Assembly: GCF_001888165.1 (NCBI RefSeq)
Contig: NZ_CP015455.1
Span: forward strand, 496,001-560,000
Reading direction: 5' to 3'
Length of the DNA stretch: 64,000 nucleotides
DNA from: Syntrophotalea acetylenica
GTDB taxonomy: Bacteria > Desulfobacterota > Desulfuromonadia > Desulfuromonadales > Syntrophotaleaceae
Part shown: in pieces, positions 7,723-13,664 of the stretch
Layout: each line of letters starts with the position of its first letter
Numbering within the stretch: position 1 is the stretch's first letter
Position numbers and translations under genes: made by a program
The notes under the pieces: model-generated
The model's database searches: none
Told to the model about the DNA's origin: nothing
The model's input: the letters and a program-made list of their open reading frames with translations, nothing else

Positions 7723-8625
7723 ATGGATAAAAAACCGGGATGCAAAGAGGCCAGACCCTCTGTGTTCGCCTCCGGCGGCGACCCTGAAAGCCGGGATTGG
7801 CTGGCAGGAGATCTGCATGTTTATGTGGAGCCCTGGCGGGCTCGTTTCGAATGGCCGGATGGCTATCCGCGGCGGATCAAGGTTCCCGATGCGCTGGTAG
7901 ATTGGGATGTCGATTATCCCGATTACGATCCGCCCTATTACGTTGCTCCCGAGGTGCTGGCCAACGACCGCACCCGAAAGGAGGGTGGCTGGGCCGATCC
8001 GGAAGACATCGCCATGGCCGAAGCTTTGCCAGTGCAGAGTTTCGAAGGGCCGATCCGATTCGATGCCAAGGGCCGGCCGCTCAATCCCCGAGGGCGTTCC
8101 GGAATCGCCGGGCGCGGCCTGCTTGGCAAGTGGGGCGTTAATTACGCCGCCGATCCCATCGTCACGCGCATCAACAAGCAGTTCGGCGACGTTGAAATGC
8201 TGGCGATTCAACGCAAGGATAACGGATTGTGGGCCATCCCCGGCGGTATGGTCGACGCTGGCGAAGAGGTGAGCCGCACGCTTGCCCGGGAATTGTCTGA
8301 AGAAACCGGCGTGAGTCTCGACATGAATCGTGGCAAGCTGATTTATCGCGGCTTTGTCGATGACCCCCGTTCCACCGACCACGCGTGGATCGAGACCACG
8401 GTTCGGCATCTGCATCTGAGTTCCGAGGATGCCGCGGATCTGGAGCCCCGCGCCGGCAGTGATGCCCGTTCGGTTTACTGGCTGCCTCTGACCGAGAAGA
8501 GCCTCCAGAAATTGTATGCAGGGCACGGTTACTTCGTCGTTTCCGCCCTGGCGCAGTTACTTCGCGACGAACCGGAGGCTTTGCCGAAAAAAATGCTGGC
8601 TGTCCTGCGGTCCTATTACAAATAA
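7723..8625 (+). CDS. Nudix hydrolase of the NUDT9 (ADP-ribose pyrophosphatase) type
   Basis: 300 residues. A perfect Nudix box runs from Gly175 to Val197 (G-x5-E-x7-RE-L-x-EE-x-G-V; key residues E181, R189, E190, E193, E194). Outside the box, GRSGIAGRGLLGKWG...NYAADPIVTR, YRGFVDDPRSTDHAWIET and the GSDARSVYW segment match the architecture of human NUDT9 and the TRPM2 C-terminal domain, which is longer than the common bacterial NudF-type enzyme. The N-terminal YPRRIKVPDALVDW cap is also NUDT9-like. Likely reaction: ADP-ribose to AMP and ribose-5-phosphate with Mg2+. It follows the small unknown protein. Confidence 0.8.
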   Translation: MDKKPGCKEARPSVFASGGDPESRDWLAGDLHVYVEPWRARFEWPDGYPRRIKVPDALVDWDVDYPDYDPPYYVAPEVLANDRTRKEGGWADPEDIAMAEALPVQSFEGPIRFDAKGRPLNPRGRSGIAGRGLLGKWGVNYAADPIVTRINKQFGDVEMLAIQRKDNGLWAIPGGMVDAGEEVSRTLARELSEETGVSLDMNRGKLIYRGFVDDPRSTDHAWIETTVRHLHLSSEDAADLEPRAGSDARSVYWLPLTEKSLQKLYAGHGYFVVSALAQLLRDEPEALPKKMLAVLRSYYK

Positions 8626-8703
8626 ATTCCGCCATAGGCCGAGAGGGGTGGCGGCGTCCGTCTTTCCCGGCCGTTTTTTCCCGTCCGGCAAAAGGGGCAA
8701 GGC

Positions 8704-9573
8704 ATGACCCCGTGGTTTTTCAAAGCGCTGCTGGCCCTTGTATTGATAGGGTTGCAGCGCTTTTTCTACAAGGTGGCGGCGGAACGCGGCTGCAATACCG
8801 CGCTGACCAGCCTGGTTTTTATGGCGACGGTGGCGGTGGTCAGCTGGTCACAGTTTTTGTGCGGGGCGGACCGGGGAGATCCGCGCCTTTCCATGGTGCT
8901 TTGGGGATTGGTCAATGGCGTGGCGTTTCTGGCCAGTGCGGCGCTGACCATTGAAGCGTTGCGGCGGATCCCGGCTGTTGTCGGGTATTCGATCACGCGC
9001 CTCAGCACGGTATTCGCAACCCTGTTTTCGGTGTTTTTCTTTCAGGACCGGCTCTGGCCGCGGCAGTGGTGCGGCATTTTGCTGGCCATTGCCGTACTGC
9101 TGCTGTTTGCTCGCCGGTCAGCGGCAGGCTCCCCGGCGGAGGAGGTTGCGGGCCGATACCGGTGCGGGGTGGCTCTGGCGCTGCTTGCCATGGTGGCCGG
9201 GACCGTGGCCACCGTTTCCAGTAAATTTGCCGCCCTGCACGCGGATAAGTGGGGATTTATGGCAATCGCCTATAGCTTCAGTGCCGCGGCCGCGGGTTTG
9301 TGGCGATACCGCCAGTGGCAAAATGTCTCGTCAGCGGCGCTGAAGGCGCCAGTAATTATCGGCATAATCATGGGGGGGCTGAATCTGATTGGCTTTTACC
9401 TGTTCCTTTGGGCGCTGGAGACCGGCCCGCTGGCCGTTATCGCGCCGCTGGTCGGTTTGCATTTCACCATAGCGGTTCTGCTTTCAGCGGTTCTGTATCG
9501 TGAGCGGCTCGATTTCCGGGGGGGGCTTGGAATCCTTCTGGCGGTGGCCGCAGTTCTGTTGATGAAAGCCTGA
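8704..9573 (+). CDS. EamA/DMT-family transporter
   Basis: 289 residues with about ten hydrophobic segments arranged as two five-helix EamA repeats. The first repeat ends near the AIAVLLLFARRSAAG segment; the second begins CGVALALLAMVAGTVATVSS and ends GGLGILLAVAAVLLMKA. This is the drug/metabolite transporter superfamily of inner-membrane exporters; the substrate cannot be predicted. It starts 78 bases after the Nudix gene and may be in the same transcript. Confidence 0.75.
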   Translation: MTPWFFKALLALVLIGLQRFFYKVAAERGCNTALTSLVFMATVAVVSWSQFLCGADRGDPRLSMVLWGLVNGVAFLASAALTIEALRRIPAVVGYSITRLSTVFATLFSVFFFQDRLWPRQWCGILLAIAVLLLFARRSAAGSPAEEVAGRYRCGVALALLAMVAGTVATVSSKFAALHADKWGFMAIAYSFSAAAAGLWRYRQWQNVSSAALKAPVIIGIIMGGLNLIGFYLFLWALETGPLAVIAPLVGLHFTIAVLLSAVLYRERLDFRGGLGILLAVAAVLLMKA

Positions 9574-9661
9574 GTCCTGTTTCCGCCGTTTTTTTGCTCC
9601 TGTTTTGGTTTGCCTGTTTTTTTAGGGTGTTTCACCTGGTCAGGGGTTTTTCCCCACGGTC

Positions 9662-9681
9662 TTATCCACTTTTTATCCACA
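9662..9681 (+). promoter_or_regulatory. two DnaA-box-like sites upstream of nrdD
   Basis: TTATCCACT (9662-9670) and a perfect TTATCCACA (9673-9681) lie head-to-tail with starts 11 bp apart. The consensus is TTATNCACA. They sit just upstream of the NrdR boxes. In E. coli, DnaA boxes control the aerobic nrdAB promoter, so replication-linked control of nrdD is plausible here. Confidence 0.5.
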
Positions 9682-9698
9682 TCCTTTCCAGTTCATAT

Positions 9699-9746
9699 GC
9701 ACAATATATAGGGCAGTATGCGCAGTTTTTCCCCTAGATATTGTGC
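9699..9746 (+). promoter_or_regulatory. pair of NrdR boxes upstream of nrdD
   Basis: Box 1 is GCACAATATATAGGGC (9699-9714); box 2 is CCCCTAGATATTGTGC by position (core CTAGATATTG, 9734-9743). Both fit the NrdR consensus acaCwAtATaTwGtgt. Core-to-core spacing is 32 bp, three helical turns, as in known tandem NrdR sites. NrdR is the ATP-cone repressor of ribonucleotide reductase operons. Confidence 0.8.
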
Positions 9747-9755
9747 TGTTTTGCC

Positions 9756-9783
9756 TTGACAGCAAGGCATGCTGTGCTACATT
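9756..9783 (+). promoter_or_regulatory. sigma70-like promoter of nrdD
   Basis: A perfect TTGACA (9756-9761), a 16-bp spacer, then TACATT (9778-9783). It lies directly downstream of the NrdR boxes and about 36 bp before the nrdD start. Confidence 0.55.
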
Positions 9784-9818
9784 CAGACTCGTCAAATCGA
9801 CCGTGGAGGAATGCAGGC

Positions 9819-11807
9819 ATGATCGAATATATTCGCAAAAGAGATGGCCGGCTGGTGCCGTTTGAGCAGGATAAGATCTCGTTGGCCATTCAGAAAGCCG
9901 TGCGGGCCGTGAACGGTACCGATATGGACAAGGCTGGCAAGATCGCCCGTGAAGTCGGCGGCATTCTGGAGGTCATCTACAAGGATGACAGGGTTCCGAC
10001 CGTTGAAAATGTCCAGGACCTGGTGGAGAAGATCCTTATTGAAAAAGGCCACGCCAAAACCGCCAAGGCCTACATCCTTTACCGTAAACAGCGCGAATCG
10101 CTGCGTCAGACCAAAGAGTTCATTCAGGAGTCCATCGAGGCCATCGATTCCTATCTCACCCAGGAGGACTGGCGGGTCAACGAAAACGCCAACATGGGCT
10201 ATTCTCTGCAGGGGCTCAACAATCACATCGCCGCCAATATCACCAGCAACTACTGGTTGAACAAAGTCTACCCCCGCGAAATCGCCGATGCGCATCGCAA
10301 TGCCGATTTTCACGTTCACGATCTTGGTACCCTGTCGGTGTACTGCTGCGGCTGGGATCTGCGCGATCTTCTGCTACGCGGGTTCAGCGGCGCCTACGGC
10401 AAGATCGAGAGCGGACCGCCGCGCCATTTCCGTACAGCCCTCGGTCAGGTTGTCAACTTCTTCTACACCCTGCAGGGCGAAGCGGCCGGTGCCCAGGCGT
10501 TCGCCAACTTCGATACCTTGCTGGCACCTTTTATCCGGTACGACAAACTGACCTATCGCGAGGTCAAGCAATCGGTTCAGGAATTTATCTTCAACATGAA
10601 CGTGCCGACCCGGGTCGGTTTCCAGACGCCTTTTACCAACATCACCCTCGATATGATCGCGCCGCGCAATCTCGCCGAGGAAGCGGTGGTGTGCGGCGGC
10701 CGGCTGATGGATGATCGCTATGGCGATTTTCAGGAGGAAATGGATCTGTTCAATCGCGCCTTCTGCGAGGTGATGATGAGCGGCGACCATGCCGGCAGGA
10801 TTTTTTCCTTTCCGATTCCGACCTACAACATCACCAGCGACATCGACTGGGAAAGTCCCCGGTTCCAGGCCATCTGGGAGATGACCGCCAAGTACGGCAT
10901 CCCTTATTTCAGCAATTTCATCAATTCGGATATGGACCCGGAAGATGCCCGCTCCATGTGCTGCCGGCTGCGCCTCGACAATCGGGAGCTGCGCCGCCGT
11001 GGCGGCGGATTGTTCGGTTCCAATCCCCTGACCGGATCGGTCGGCGTGGTGACCCTCAATCTGCCGCGCGCCGCCTATCTGGCGGACGGCAAAGAGGCCT
11101 TTTTCGCGCGCATCTCCGAGTTGATGCGCCTGGCCTACCAGTCCATGGAAATCAAGCGCAAGCAGCTTGAACGCCTGACGGAGGAAGGCCTGTACCCCTA
11201 CAGCCGCTTTTATCTGTCCGGAATCCGGGAGCGTATGGGCCAGTACTGGGCCAACCATTTTTCCACCATCGGCCTGATCGGCATGAACGAAGCCGCCCTC
11301 AACCTTATCGGTCAGGGCATTGAAACGCCTTCCGGCAAGGCTCTGGCGGTGGAGACACTTAACTTCATGCGCCTGCAACTGGAGGCGTTCCAGGAAGAAT
11401 CGGGACATCTGTACAATCTTGAAGCCACTCCGGCCGAAGGCACCAGCTTTCGTCTGGCCAGTCAGGATCGCAAGCGCTATCCGGAGATTATCACCGCCGG
11501 CACCGATGAGCCTTATTACACCAATTCCACGCAGCTGCCGGTTGGCAGCACCGAGGATATTTTTCAGGCACTGAATCACCAGGATGCACTGCAGACCCTG
11601 TACACCGGCGGCACGGTGTTTCACGGATTTCTCGGTGAACGGTTGGAAAACTGGGAAAGCGCCCGGTTGCTGGTGCAGCGCATCGCCAACAATTTTCATC
11701 TGCCCTATTTCACCATCAGTCCGACCTTCACTATTTGCCCGGTGCATGGCTATATTCCGGGCGAGCATTTCAGCTGTCCCCATCACCAGGACGGCGGTGC
11801 GGCCTGA
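9819..11807 (+). CDS. nrdD: anaerobic ribonucleoside-triphosphate reductase, large chain lacking its glycyl-radical tail
   Basis: 662 residues from ATG 9819 (GGAGGA site). Residues 1-95 are an ATP-cone (MIEYIRKRDGRLVPFEQDK), the allosteric switch. The barrel follows with the CCRLRLDNRE active-site region near residue 380. The C-terminus reaches the zinc-knuckle motif (C640-P-V-H643, C653-P-H-H656) and stops six residues later. The glycyl-radical loop (normally RVxGY) is missing from this chain and is encoded 44 bases downstream as a separate small gene. Role: oxygen-sensitive class III reduction of ribonucleotides to dNTPs. Operon: nrdD, small glycyl-radical gene, nrdG. Control: NrdR boxes and possible DnaA boxes. 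Confidence 0.93.
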   Translation: MIEYIRKRDGRLVPFEQDKISLAIQKAVRAVNGTDMDKAGKIAREVGGILEVIYKDDRVPTVENVQDLVEKILIEKGHAKTAKAYILYRKQRESLRQTKEFIQESIEAIDSYLTQEDWRVNENANMGYSLQGLNNHIAANITSNYWLNKVYPREIADAHRNADFHVHDLGTLSVYCCGWDLRDLLLRGFSGAYGKIESGPPRHFRTALGQVVNFFYTLQGEAAGAQAFANFDTLLAPFIRYDKLTYREVKQSVQEFIFNMNVPTRVGFQTPFTNITLDMIAPRNLAEEAVVCGGRLMDDRYGDFQEEMDLFNRAFCEVMMSGDHAGRIFSFPIPTYNITSDIDWESPRFQAIWEMTAKYGIPYFSNFINSDMDPEDARSMCCRLRLDNRELRRRGGGLFGSNPLTGSVGVVTLNLPRAAYLADGKEAFFARISELMRLAYQSMEIKRKQLERLTEEGLYPYSRFYLSGIRERMGQYWANHFSTIGLIGMNEAALNLIGQGIETPSGKALAVETLNFMRLQLEAFQEESGHLYNLEATPAEGTSFRLASQDRKRYPEIITAGTDEPYYTNSTQLPVGSTEDIFQALNHQDALQTLYTGGTVFHGFLGERLENWESARLLVQRIANNFHLPYFTISPTFTICPVHGYIPGEHFSCPHHQDGGAA

Positions 11808-11851
11808 GACCGGCTTGTTTGAAACGACTTCCTTAATCATGGAGACTGGAC

Positions 11852-11998
11852 ATGGCAACCAAGTGTGATGCAAAAACCGAAGTCTATTCGAGAGTTTGCG
11901 GATTTTTCCGGCCCGTTCAGCAATGGAACCGCGGCAAAAAGGAGGAATTCAAGGACCGCCGTGAATTTGTCCTTGAAAAAACCCCCGGAAAAGGCTGA
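11852..11998 (+). CDS. separate glycyl-radical domain of class III ribonucleotide reductase
   Basis: 48 residues: MATKCDAKTEVYSR then VCGFFRPVQQWNRGKKEEF. It matches the C-terminal end of ordinary NrdD, with the radical-bearing glycine at residue 17 in RVCGFFRP. It has its own ATG with a GGAGA site seven bases upstream, ends before the nrdG start at 12004, and is in good codon use. It is separated from nrdD by a stop and 44 bases, so this is not a simple frameshift. Cys5 sits where the last zinc-knuckle cysteine would be in an unsplit protein. Inference: it docks on NrdD and is activated by NrdG, comparable in concept to GrcA/YfiD for pyruvate formate-lyase. Confidence 0.88.
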   Translation: MATKCDAKTEVYSRVCGFFRPVQQWNRGKKEEFKDRREFVLEKTPGKG

Positions 11999-12003
11999 TC
12001 TCA

Positions 12004-12698
12004 ATGGGAATCAAAGGCTTCCAGGGAACCAGCCTGCTGGATTTTCCCGGCCGCATCGCTTCTCTGGTGTTTGTGGGGGGTGCAATCTGAGCTGTCCCTT
12101 TTGCCACAACCCCGCTCTGGTAAAGGCACCGGAGAGTCTGCCTGACTACCCGCTGGAGCCGTTGTTTGAAGAATTGAAACAGCGGCGCTCCTTCATCGAT
12201 GGCGTGGTTATCTCAGGAGGCGAGCCAACCCTGTATCCCGGATTGTCCGACCTGATGCGCGGCATCAAGGATCTGGGGCTGCTGGTCAAGCTCGACACCA
12301 ACGGGTTGCGTCCCGATGTCGTCGCCGGGGTGCTGGAGCAGGGGTTGGCGGATATGGTAGCTCTGGACCTCAAGACGTCCCCCGAGCGCTACGGCGAACT
12401 GCACTGCGCACCGGTGGACGGCAGCCCATTGCGGGAGAGCGTCGCCTTGCTGTTGCGCGATTCCGTTGCTTGCGAGTTTCGCACGACCTGTGTGCCCGGC
12501 CTGGTGCAGGAGGCTGACATCCATGTCCTGGGCACCCTGCTGCAGGGTGCCGGAAGTTGGGTGCTGCAGCAGTTCGTGCCGCACTACTGCATGGACGACG
12601 GCTATCGGGCCATCGAGCCCTATCCGGCTTCTTTTCTGGAGCATTTTGCCGAACTGGCGCGCCGTTACGTTCCCTGTGTGATGTTGCGAGGCGTCTGA
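12004..12698 (+). pseudogene. nrdG: anaerobic ribonucleotide reductase activase NrdG, single-base frameshift
   Basis: A radical SAM enzyme that makes the glycyl radical. From ATG 12004 the frame reads MGIKGFQGTSLLDFPGRIAS, then LVFVGG, and breaks. The rest (CNLSCPFCHNPALV with the CxxxCxxC iron-sulfur motif, VVISGGEPT, LKLDTNG) is in the next frame to 12698. One G is missing from the G6 run at 12075-12080; seven G would give an intact 231-residue protein. The ribosome site AAGG overlaps the end of the small glycyl-radical gene. Because nrdD depends on it, and the rest is undamaged, a homopolymer sequencing error or recoding at the slippery run should be considered. Confidence 0.88.
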
Positions 12699-13163
12699 CC
12701 CTGGCAGGTCCGTCGCGCCGGGTCAGGATATGTTGTCGAGATGGTCCGGCCGGGCCATTTCCGATGCAAAAACCTGTTGCTCAGCTGCCTGTGGCTATGG
12801 CGACTGTCGTTCGAATCCCTTCCAAATCTTCCCACCTGATGTTTTTCTCTTTCTCTGGATACAGCGTAGTTTTCATATGGAAAACGAGCAATTTTTCGTT
12901 GTGGCAAGGAAATCAAGGGGTTGCGCGGAGGCGTACATCGGTACGCCGCACAAGCAAGCCTGCGGATTGACGCCGCCATGGCGGAAAAGGGCCGTTTCCG
13001 GATGAAAACTAGTTAGCAGCGGAGGTCTCCGATGTGGCTTCCTCATTATTTTTCGTGATGTTTACGGTAGGAATTCCCAAATAGAGTGGTTCTGTGATAT
13101 GTTGGCTTCTCGTTTGCCGGCCGTCCTTTTTATTCAAAACGGAACAGAAAACAAAGGTGCGCG
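12699..13163. other. 465-bp gene-free interval holding a 156-bp dispersed repeat
   Basis: Between nrdG and the PAS gene. The middle is the 156-bp repeat copy A. A short open frame inside the repeat (beginning MENEQFFVVARKS) is repeated with the element and is not treated as a gene. Confidence 0.65.
12857..13012 (+). repeat. 156-bp MITE-like repeat, copy A
   Basis: It is 97% identical (4 differences in 156) to the reverse complement of 22373-22528. Imperfect ends carry a 10-bp inverted repeat, TAGTTTTCAT (12867-12876) and ATGAAAACTA (13002-13011). No transposase is encoded. A small non-autonomous mobile or palindromic repeat is the likely nature. Confidence 0.75.
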
Positions 13164-13664
13164 ATGATTAACAGGACTCTTTGGAAAAAGCTTTGGGAAT
13201 ATGATCCTAACAGCCTGGTCGTTATGGATCATGACTCCATGATGATTAAAATCGTAAATCCCTCTTTCTGTGACATCGTCAAAACCGGTGAAGCAGACGT
13301 GCTTGGCAAGCACGCTTCAGCCTTTTTTGATGACCTGAGTGATTTTCAGGAAGCCTGGGATAAAAACAGCGTCATCCGCAAGGAAAAAAAGTTCCAGCGC
13401 TACGGAACCTATATGCGACTGGTTATTTTTCCCATGAAGGATGAAGGCGTGGTGGCCTGCATCCTGGTCGATTTGACCTGCGAGCACCATCAGCGCGAAG
13501 AGATGCGCCGCATCAAGGAGGAACTGCTCCTGAATGTCAACAAGGTCATTGACAAGCAGATGCATATCGCACAGCAGATTGCGGGCCTGCTTGGAGAAAC
13601 AACGGCTGAGGCAAAGGTCAGCTTGATCAAAATCCGCAACGCGCTGAATGAGGAGATCAAGTAG
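13164..13664 (+). CDS. PAS-domain protein paired with SpoIIE phosphatase
   Basis: 166 residues. Residues about 12-110 form a PAS-like sensor (LVVMDHDSMMIKIVNPSFCD, then VLGKHASAFF). The C-terminal 50 residues are a helical, probably coiled-coil segment (EMRRIKEELLLNVNKVIDKQMH). There is no kinase or DNA-binding domain. Its stop overlaps the GTG start of the SpoIIE gene by one base, so the two are translationally coupled. Very similar PAS/SpoIIE pairs occur beside [FeFe]-hydrogenase operons in anaerobes, but no hydrogenase gene is in view here. Confidence 0.75.
   Translation: MINRTLWKKLWEYDPNSLVVMDHDSMMIKIVNPSFCDIVKTGEADVLGKHASAFFDDLSDFQEAWDKNSVIRKEKKFQRYGTYMRLVIFPMKDEGVVACILVDLTCEHHQREEMRRIKEELLLNVNKVIDKQMHIAQQIAGLLGETTAEAKVSLIKIRNALNEEIK

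Follow-up and report, generated by a model that had tools for sequence, protein, structure and literature searches.

Analysis of a 64,000-nucleotide stretch of Syntrophotalea acetylenica DNA (hereafter, the window) indicates that the class III ribonucleotide reductase (RNR) of this bacterium is very probably a two-chain enzyme, in which the glycyl-radical domain would be a separate 48-residue subunit encoded in an nrdD-tail-nrdG cluster. The NrdD family profile is partitioned between a core and a tail, two open reading frames (ORFs) that share one NrdD, and the gene order at the locus is nrdD core, tail and then nrdG2, all on the plus strand. The core (positions 9819-11807) starts with ATG at 9819, stops with TGA at 11805-11807 and encodes 662 residues, which comprise an ATP-cone and the catalytic barrel, lack the glycyl-radical segment and end in ...TICPVHGYIPGEHFSCPHHQDGGAA. 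It matches positions 1-526 of the 562 in Pfam profile PF13597 (E = 7.8e-179) as well as the ATP-cone profile PF03477, and it scores 510 bits over positions 1-545 of the 581 in TIGR02487 (cut-off, 326), so that the NRDD catalytic domain is present. A gap of 44 nt (11808-11851), which contains GGAG at 11841-11844 and in which no terminator-like site was found on the plus strand, lies between the core stop and the start of the tail ORF (11852-11998). The tail is read in a different frame from that of the core; its peptide begins MATKCDAKTEVYSRVCGFFRPVQQWNRGKKEEF... and its 48 residues are, in full, MATKCDAKTEVYSRVCGFFRPVQQWNRGKKEEFKDRREFVLEKTPGKG. The original prediction, that the large chain stops at residue 662 and that a tail with its own start, ribosome site and stop follows 44 bases away, is borne out by these coordinates (ATG at 11852, GGAG as above, end at 11998).

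The tail matches positions 525-562 of PF13597 (E = 2.9e-9, computed for one genome) and positions 545-580 of TIGR02487 (E = 5e-9). The glycyl-radical motif is thus encoded with the core, by the adjacent gene, and the core and radical domain occupy separate ORFs; the solved enzymes, by contrast, join the two in a single polypeptide. The presumed radical glycine is Gly17 of the tail (codon 11900-11902), which lies in the motif RVCGFF and is invariant in alignments A1 and A2. The profile E-value, together with conservation across the class, argues that the tail is no chance ORF.

The cut falls within a zinc motif. Continuous NrdDs from the phylum carry on one chain, in 22/22 cases, a CxxC whose cysteines stand at Gly-15 and Gly-12 relative to the radical glycine. 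Tails of the class carry the cysteine at Gly-12 in 80/80 cases and that at Gly-15 in 0/80. The core retains the first cysteine, which is Cys653 in the window (codon 11775-11777, invariant in alignment A5), and the position of the second is occupied there by H, Q, V, M, E, L or other residues. The second cysteine is Cys5 of the tail (codon 11864-11866), 12 residues N-terminal of the radical glycine. With the first cysteine on the core and the second on the tail, the cut lies between the two cysteines of one motif. The other half of the presumed zinc site is Cys640-Pro-Val-His643 of the core (codons 11736-11747), in which Cys640 and His643 are invariant in alignment A4. The original prediction had a CPVH...CPHH knuckle closing the large chain; CPVH is indeed on the core, but the knuckle is probably incomplete there, because the cysteine found at Gly-12 of continuous NrdDs sits on the small protein. 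Ligands of both chains may meet in a single zinc site.

As a proxy for the fold, we used the locus of a Desulfuromonadales MAG (L091), 93% identical to the window NrdD, read as a single chain through in-frame TGAs. With 78 rows, the model reached a pLDDT of 87.0 and a pTM of 0.82, with the tail blocks at pLDDT 85-88 and the inter-gene stretch (660-676) below 50; an earlier model with 36 rows had left the tail unplaced. Residues 95-718 of the proxy align with 85-735 of Prevotella copri NrdD (8p2s_B; Z 35.7, rmsd 2.8, 562 aligned), and Z scores against solved class III NrdDs were 29-36. The radical glycine of P. copri NrdD is residue 711, and the domain that bears it is expected to shift as one rigid unit (PMC11226230). 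The predicted fold suggests that a cut at the core-tail junction is structurally tolerable. The proxy cannot show binding in trans, because it is a single read-through chain and its alignment includes continuous NrdDs, which bring the same placement with them.

NrdD ends inside the zinc motif, and we propose that the next gene supplies the radical subunit. The zinc site, with core Cys640, His643 and Cys653 and tail Cys5 as its putative ligands, would hold the small protein on the core, and NrdG would load the radical onto Gly17 of the small subunit. Gly17 would then reach into the barrel, next to the loop with the radical cysteine, and pass the radical to the core, and catalysis would start via the core cysteine. 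After cleavage by oxygen, a new tail could be supplied while the core is kept; if the arrangement is permanent and the radical is on the small subunit, oxygen damage would cost only 48 residues. The suggestion that two chains are needed to form the radical site gains support from the split loci described below, while we infer the docking of the 48-mer in trans, the shared zinc site, the loading by NrdG, the radical transfer and the repair.

Tails are also found alone. An extra tail without an adjacent core was present in 8 of the 58 genomes of the near sample (the source genome and its nearest relatives), including the source genome itself. The second tail of the source genome (C1:2320234-2320341; L004:8226-8384) has its own ribosome site and lies between CobT-like and RadC-like genes, with CobT, CbbQ_C and RadC domains among its Pfam neighbours, in what is likely a mobile element. 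Pfam neighbours of other extra tails include Mu GemA, DUF3164 and an AAA/TniB ATPase (L088), or an M15 peptidase and a phage integrase (L085). The GemA-like neighbour of L088 is also found at L082 and L087 and more weakly at L084, which has ORFs in common with L086, and the L083 tail is identical to that of IMG/VR locus L169. The DNA around the extra tails is mainly phage-like. All eight tails have the cysteine at Gly-12 (8/8), and they differ mainly at codon position 3 (0.482 vs 0.154 and 0.167).

A search of IMG/VR with the tail alignment identified 100 relatives, and the best 80 of these 100 were analyzed. Among these best 80, three loci have a continuous NrdD (L209, L239 and L248), one has the tail inside a longer open frame (L216), and the other 76 have a short-ORF tail with no core on the same strand; a GemA-like gene, detected with a model built from three prophages, is present at 14. 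The cysteine at Gly-12 is found in 58 of the 75 viral tails read from the best 80 of 100 relatives, and codon position 3 is again the most divergent (0.584 vs 0.229 and 0.180). In L171 and L172, a stop interrupts the tail after ...RVCGFFRPV. Searches of phages by tblastn returned 3 and 1 records only, and the evidence for phage-borne tails thus comes from IMG/VR and prophages. When six tails were compared with PHROGs, four matched only the end of a whole-NrdD family and two had no match.

Other arrangements were also seen among viruses. Some phage NrdDs are themselves split (L249, L290, L294 and L327), and several viral NrdDs (L268-L296 in part) extend past the radical domain into what, by eye, resembles a glutaredoxin- or thioredoxin-like domain. 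The archaeal virus ANMV-1 encodes a 144-residue protein (AJP62049.1; L334:1177-1611), annotated as a whole reductase, that has its own CHDC...CPKC before the radical motif. A viral record of 187,654 bases (G321, the record of L227) contains a truncated NrdD core and NrdG2, with the tail 69 kb away on the opposite strand, and appears from its sequence to be a scattered split class III RNR.

Phages that carry just the tail make the radical part look like an exchangeable subunit. With slightly better than even confidence, we propose that a glycyl radical on an exchangeable small subunit is common to cells and viruses, and that phages, including Mu-like prophages of bacteria with split NrdD, encode the subunit only, so that host NrdG would load it and the host reductase would be completed, rescued or taken over. 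Tail-only phages would depend on the host core and activase, and their tail gene could complete or repair the host enzyme; the phage tail may serve to rescue host NrdD, to top it up, to take it over or to block it. Blocking is central to another explanation, in which the phage-borne tails are decoys that take the host radical or NrdG. In 50 whole records from the best 80 of 100 relatives, which may be fragments, the tail was found in 50/50, no core in 49/50, and NrdG2 above the cut-off in 1/50 (G321), and the tail must consequently act on host parts, as a decoy would. However, the tails retain the radical motif, on which purifying selection acts, and a phage profits from dNTP supply. Both points are compatible with a decoy too, and we regard decoys as unlikely.

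In the window, nrdG2 (12004-12698; TIGR02495 positions 23-193) is out of frame in the assembly after its first codons: it opens in one frame (MGIKGFQGTSLLDFPGRIASLVF...), its radical-SAM part is in another, and the break lies within a run of G. No other NrdG2 in the genome passes the cut-off. At 38 of 41 relatives' loci, nrdG motifs are close by, with the frame intact where the pattern found the gene. The break in the window may be either a sequencing error or a real loss. The genome also encodes a class II NrdJ outside the locus, and, with nrdG broken and NrdJ present, the class III enzyme of this strain may be idle. B12 elements before nrdDG have been reported for Desulfuromonas (PMC545781); an Rfam scan of positions 8600-13200 gave nothing above the gathering score.

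The presence of NrdJ fits a further explanation, that the 48-mer is an accessory protein (a spare or a regulator) that is not needed, the truncated core being idle while NrdJ does the work. YfiD and Y06I would offer a precedent, as they are described as spare parts alongside intact pyruvate formate-lyase (PFL) (PMC8683613). Nevertheless, a radical glycine is missing from the cores that we read, core and tail remain adjacent and conserved, and only one genome in a sample of 117 from the class (G050) has a continuous NrdD in addition to its split one. An accessory role is, in our judgment, quite improbable.

The split of NrdD into two ORFs is a trait of the class Desulfuromonadia. PF13597 matched in 53 of the 58 genomes of the near sample, and 49 of these, as read from the tables, combine a core with a tail in an ORF of its own; the remaining four have a continuous NrdD only (G057), a core fragment only (G012 and G021) or a tail only (G051). 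In the class sample, 64 of 117 genomes have an NrdD match, and the tail is a separate ORF in 63 of the 64, the sole exception being G021, in which a core fragment lies at a contig end. We read 59 of the 63 split genomes base by base (unread: G006, G007, G015 and the split copy of G050).

The original prediction held that one continuous NrdD in close relatives would speak against it. Instead, we found 28 split loci among the 30 that were read from relatives, and the two continuous ones are a gene from another NrdD clade (L014, in G057) and the second NrdD of G050, on another contig (L021); the NrdD on a Geoalkalibacter subterraneus plasmid is likewise continuous. Further loci are split in 38 of 40 cases, the other two (G021 and G252) being without a complete core end; G252 and G215 (broken elsewhere) and G147 (masked) stand outside the split count. 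Named-genome loci (L089-L168) came from one scan of genome contigs and were the best 80 of 205 relatives. Most are from MAGs, the names include Pelobacter, Desulfuromonas, Desulfuromusa and Malonomonas, and the label is Desulfuromonadales or Deltaproteobacteria in nearly every case. Core and tail are present in 72 of these best 80 of 205; the other eight had no core beside the tail by our search pattern and were dropped before the counts that follow.

In the 72 split loci among the best 80 of 205 relatives, the core-tail gap ranges from 11 to 290 nt (median 57.5), the core stops are TGA (43), TAG (20) and TAA (9), and a start with a ribosome-site pattern precedes the tail in 72/72, although this pattern is loose and the assigned start of L149 is doubtful. 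Differences among the named-genome tails at codon positions 1/2/3 occur in 5.1/3.6/53.5% of comparisons, which points to purifying selection on the class tail; synonymous sites of these tails are saturated. A separate observation concerns the core end, which is Ala-Ala in 66 of the 72 loci (best 80 of 205 relatives) though the preceding residues vary. The corresponding codons in the window are 11799-11804, and a degron or a contact are candidate roles.

These loci also bear on the idea that translation itself fuses the two ORFs, through readthrough of the stop, a frameshift or bypassing. In its favour, the tail is in the frame of the core at 27 of the 72 loci (best 80 of 205 relatives), and a single TGA lies between the two in L104, L105 and L146. 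However, the frame differs at the other 45 (12 and 33 in the two other frames), gaps reach 290 nt, in-frame cases also have TAA and TAG, the tail has its own start and ribosome-site pattern, and tails occur far from any core; joining at translation is thus very improbable. A split intein or group I intron was rejected, as either would hardly fit into gaps of 11-290 nt and the tail contains no additional residues. Finally, it is scarcely credible that NrdD is really a single gene interrupted by sequencing error or pseudogene formation, for although the neighbouring nrdG has a frame break in the assembly, the split occurs in 63 of the 64 NrdD genomes of the class with differing gaps, frames and stops, and the tail has a strong third-position bias.

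Elsewhere in the phylum, NrdD has split again, at other points. Outside the class, the phylum sample used for the genome survey includes 94 genomes with an NrdD match, and most of these NrdDs cover the whole profile with no stop. Ten genomes outside the class are split, all of which were read (G149, G162, G184, G198, G209, G219, G232, G241, G259 and G269), and their cut points vary. Type A is the cut of the class. In type B the CxxC is entire on the core, and the tail ATG overlaps the core stop by 4 bases in 5 of 12 loci (L067 and L071-L074). Types C (f52), D (f37) and E (f64) have yet other cut points. A tree of 52 cores, which included 10 of 29 type A rows and excluded two type C rows, requires six changes between continuous and split (5-6 across bootstraps), and a single origin, with all split rows in one clade, was rejected on it (p-AU 4.8e-63). 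A 69-row tree requires five changes. Type E is on a very long branch, and types A and B stay apart without it.

The continuous L014 (G057) is nested in the type B split clade and has a linker that resembles a core end plus a tail start; it may be a re-fusion. At L068 (G119), two tails lie downstream of a single type B core, about 1.3 kb apart. Free-standing proteins of about 105 residues, with an NrdD-type radical motif and an N-terminal part of their own, are encoded at L078-L081 in G204, G236 and G264, which also carry an NrdD spanning nearly the whole profile.

The window enzyme resembles the class III NrdDs of T4, Thermotoga maritima and P. copri in profile, ATP-cone, barrel and radical motif. 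It differs in that the radical domain of the solved enzymes belongs to the chain of the core, whereas here another gene encodes it and the cut is inside the zinc motif. Like the tail, YfiD/GrcA and phage T4 Y06I are small free glycyl-radical proteins found in cells and phage, and they are proposed to act on a core without a working radical domain, namely damaged PFL (PMC8683613, PMC12338860). Those proteins are of about 14 kDa, belong to the PFL branch and replace the damaged domain of a full-length enzyme, whereas the tail is NrdD-type, has 48 residues and would serve a core that never has a radical domain. Consistent with this, the 48-mer matched five NCBIfam families (E up to 1), all of them NrdD and none PFL-type, and the viral tail of L192 matched only NRDD in Pfam.

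Split RNRs of other kinds have been described. The class II enzyme NrdJa/NrdJb also has two chains, cut near a C-terminal part with a zinc finger (PMC9669993); unlike the window core, which is class III and not B12-dependent class II, it has no glycyl radical, and another part is cut off. Split phage RNR genes (Aeh1 NrdA and phiAS4 NrdD) likewise consist of two coding pieces, and Aeh1 NrdA is described as functional in pieces (PMC3653736). These are cases from single phages, mostly involving introns, inteins or homing endonucleases, whereas the split in the window is at a domain boundary, is conserved across a bacterial class and yields a small piece that is also found alone. In the open-licence literature, with subscription papers mostly outside the scope of our search, we found neither a split class III RNR nor an NrdD radical domain that stands on its own.

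Class III RNR makes dNTPs without oxygen, and the radical glycine is where oxygen cleaves the chain. If the enzyme naturally consists of two chains, the destroyed part would be replaceable. Core, radical subunit and activase could also be combined and mutated independently, which a single chain makes difficult. The tails carried by phages point to an auxiliary gene of very small size. To our knowledge, spare parts for glycyl-radical enzymes have so far been validated only for pyruvate formate-lyase; the exchangeable subunit proposed here, if true, would represent spare parts for a ribonucleotide reductase.
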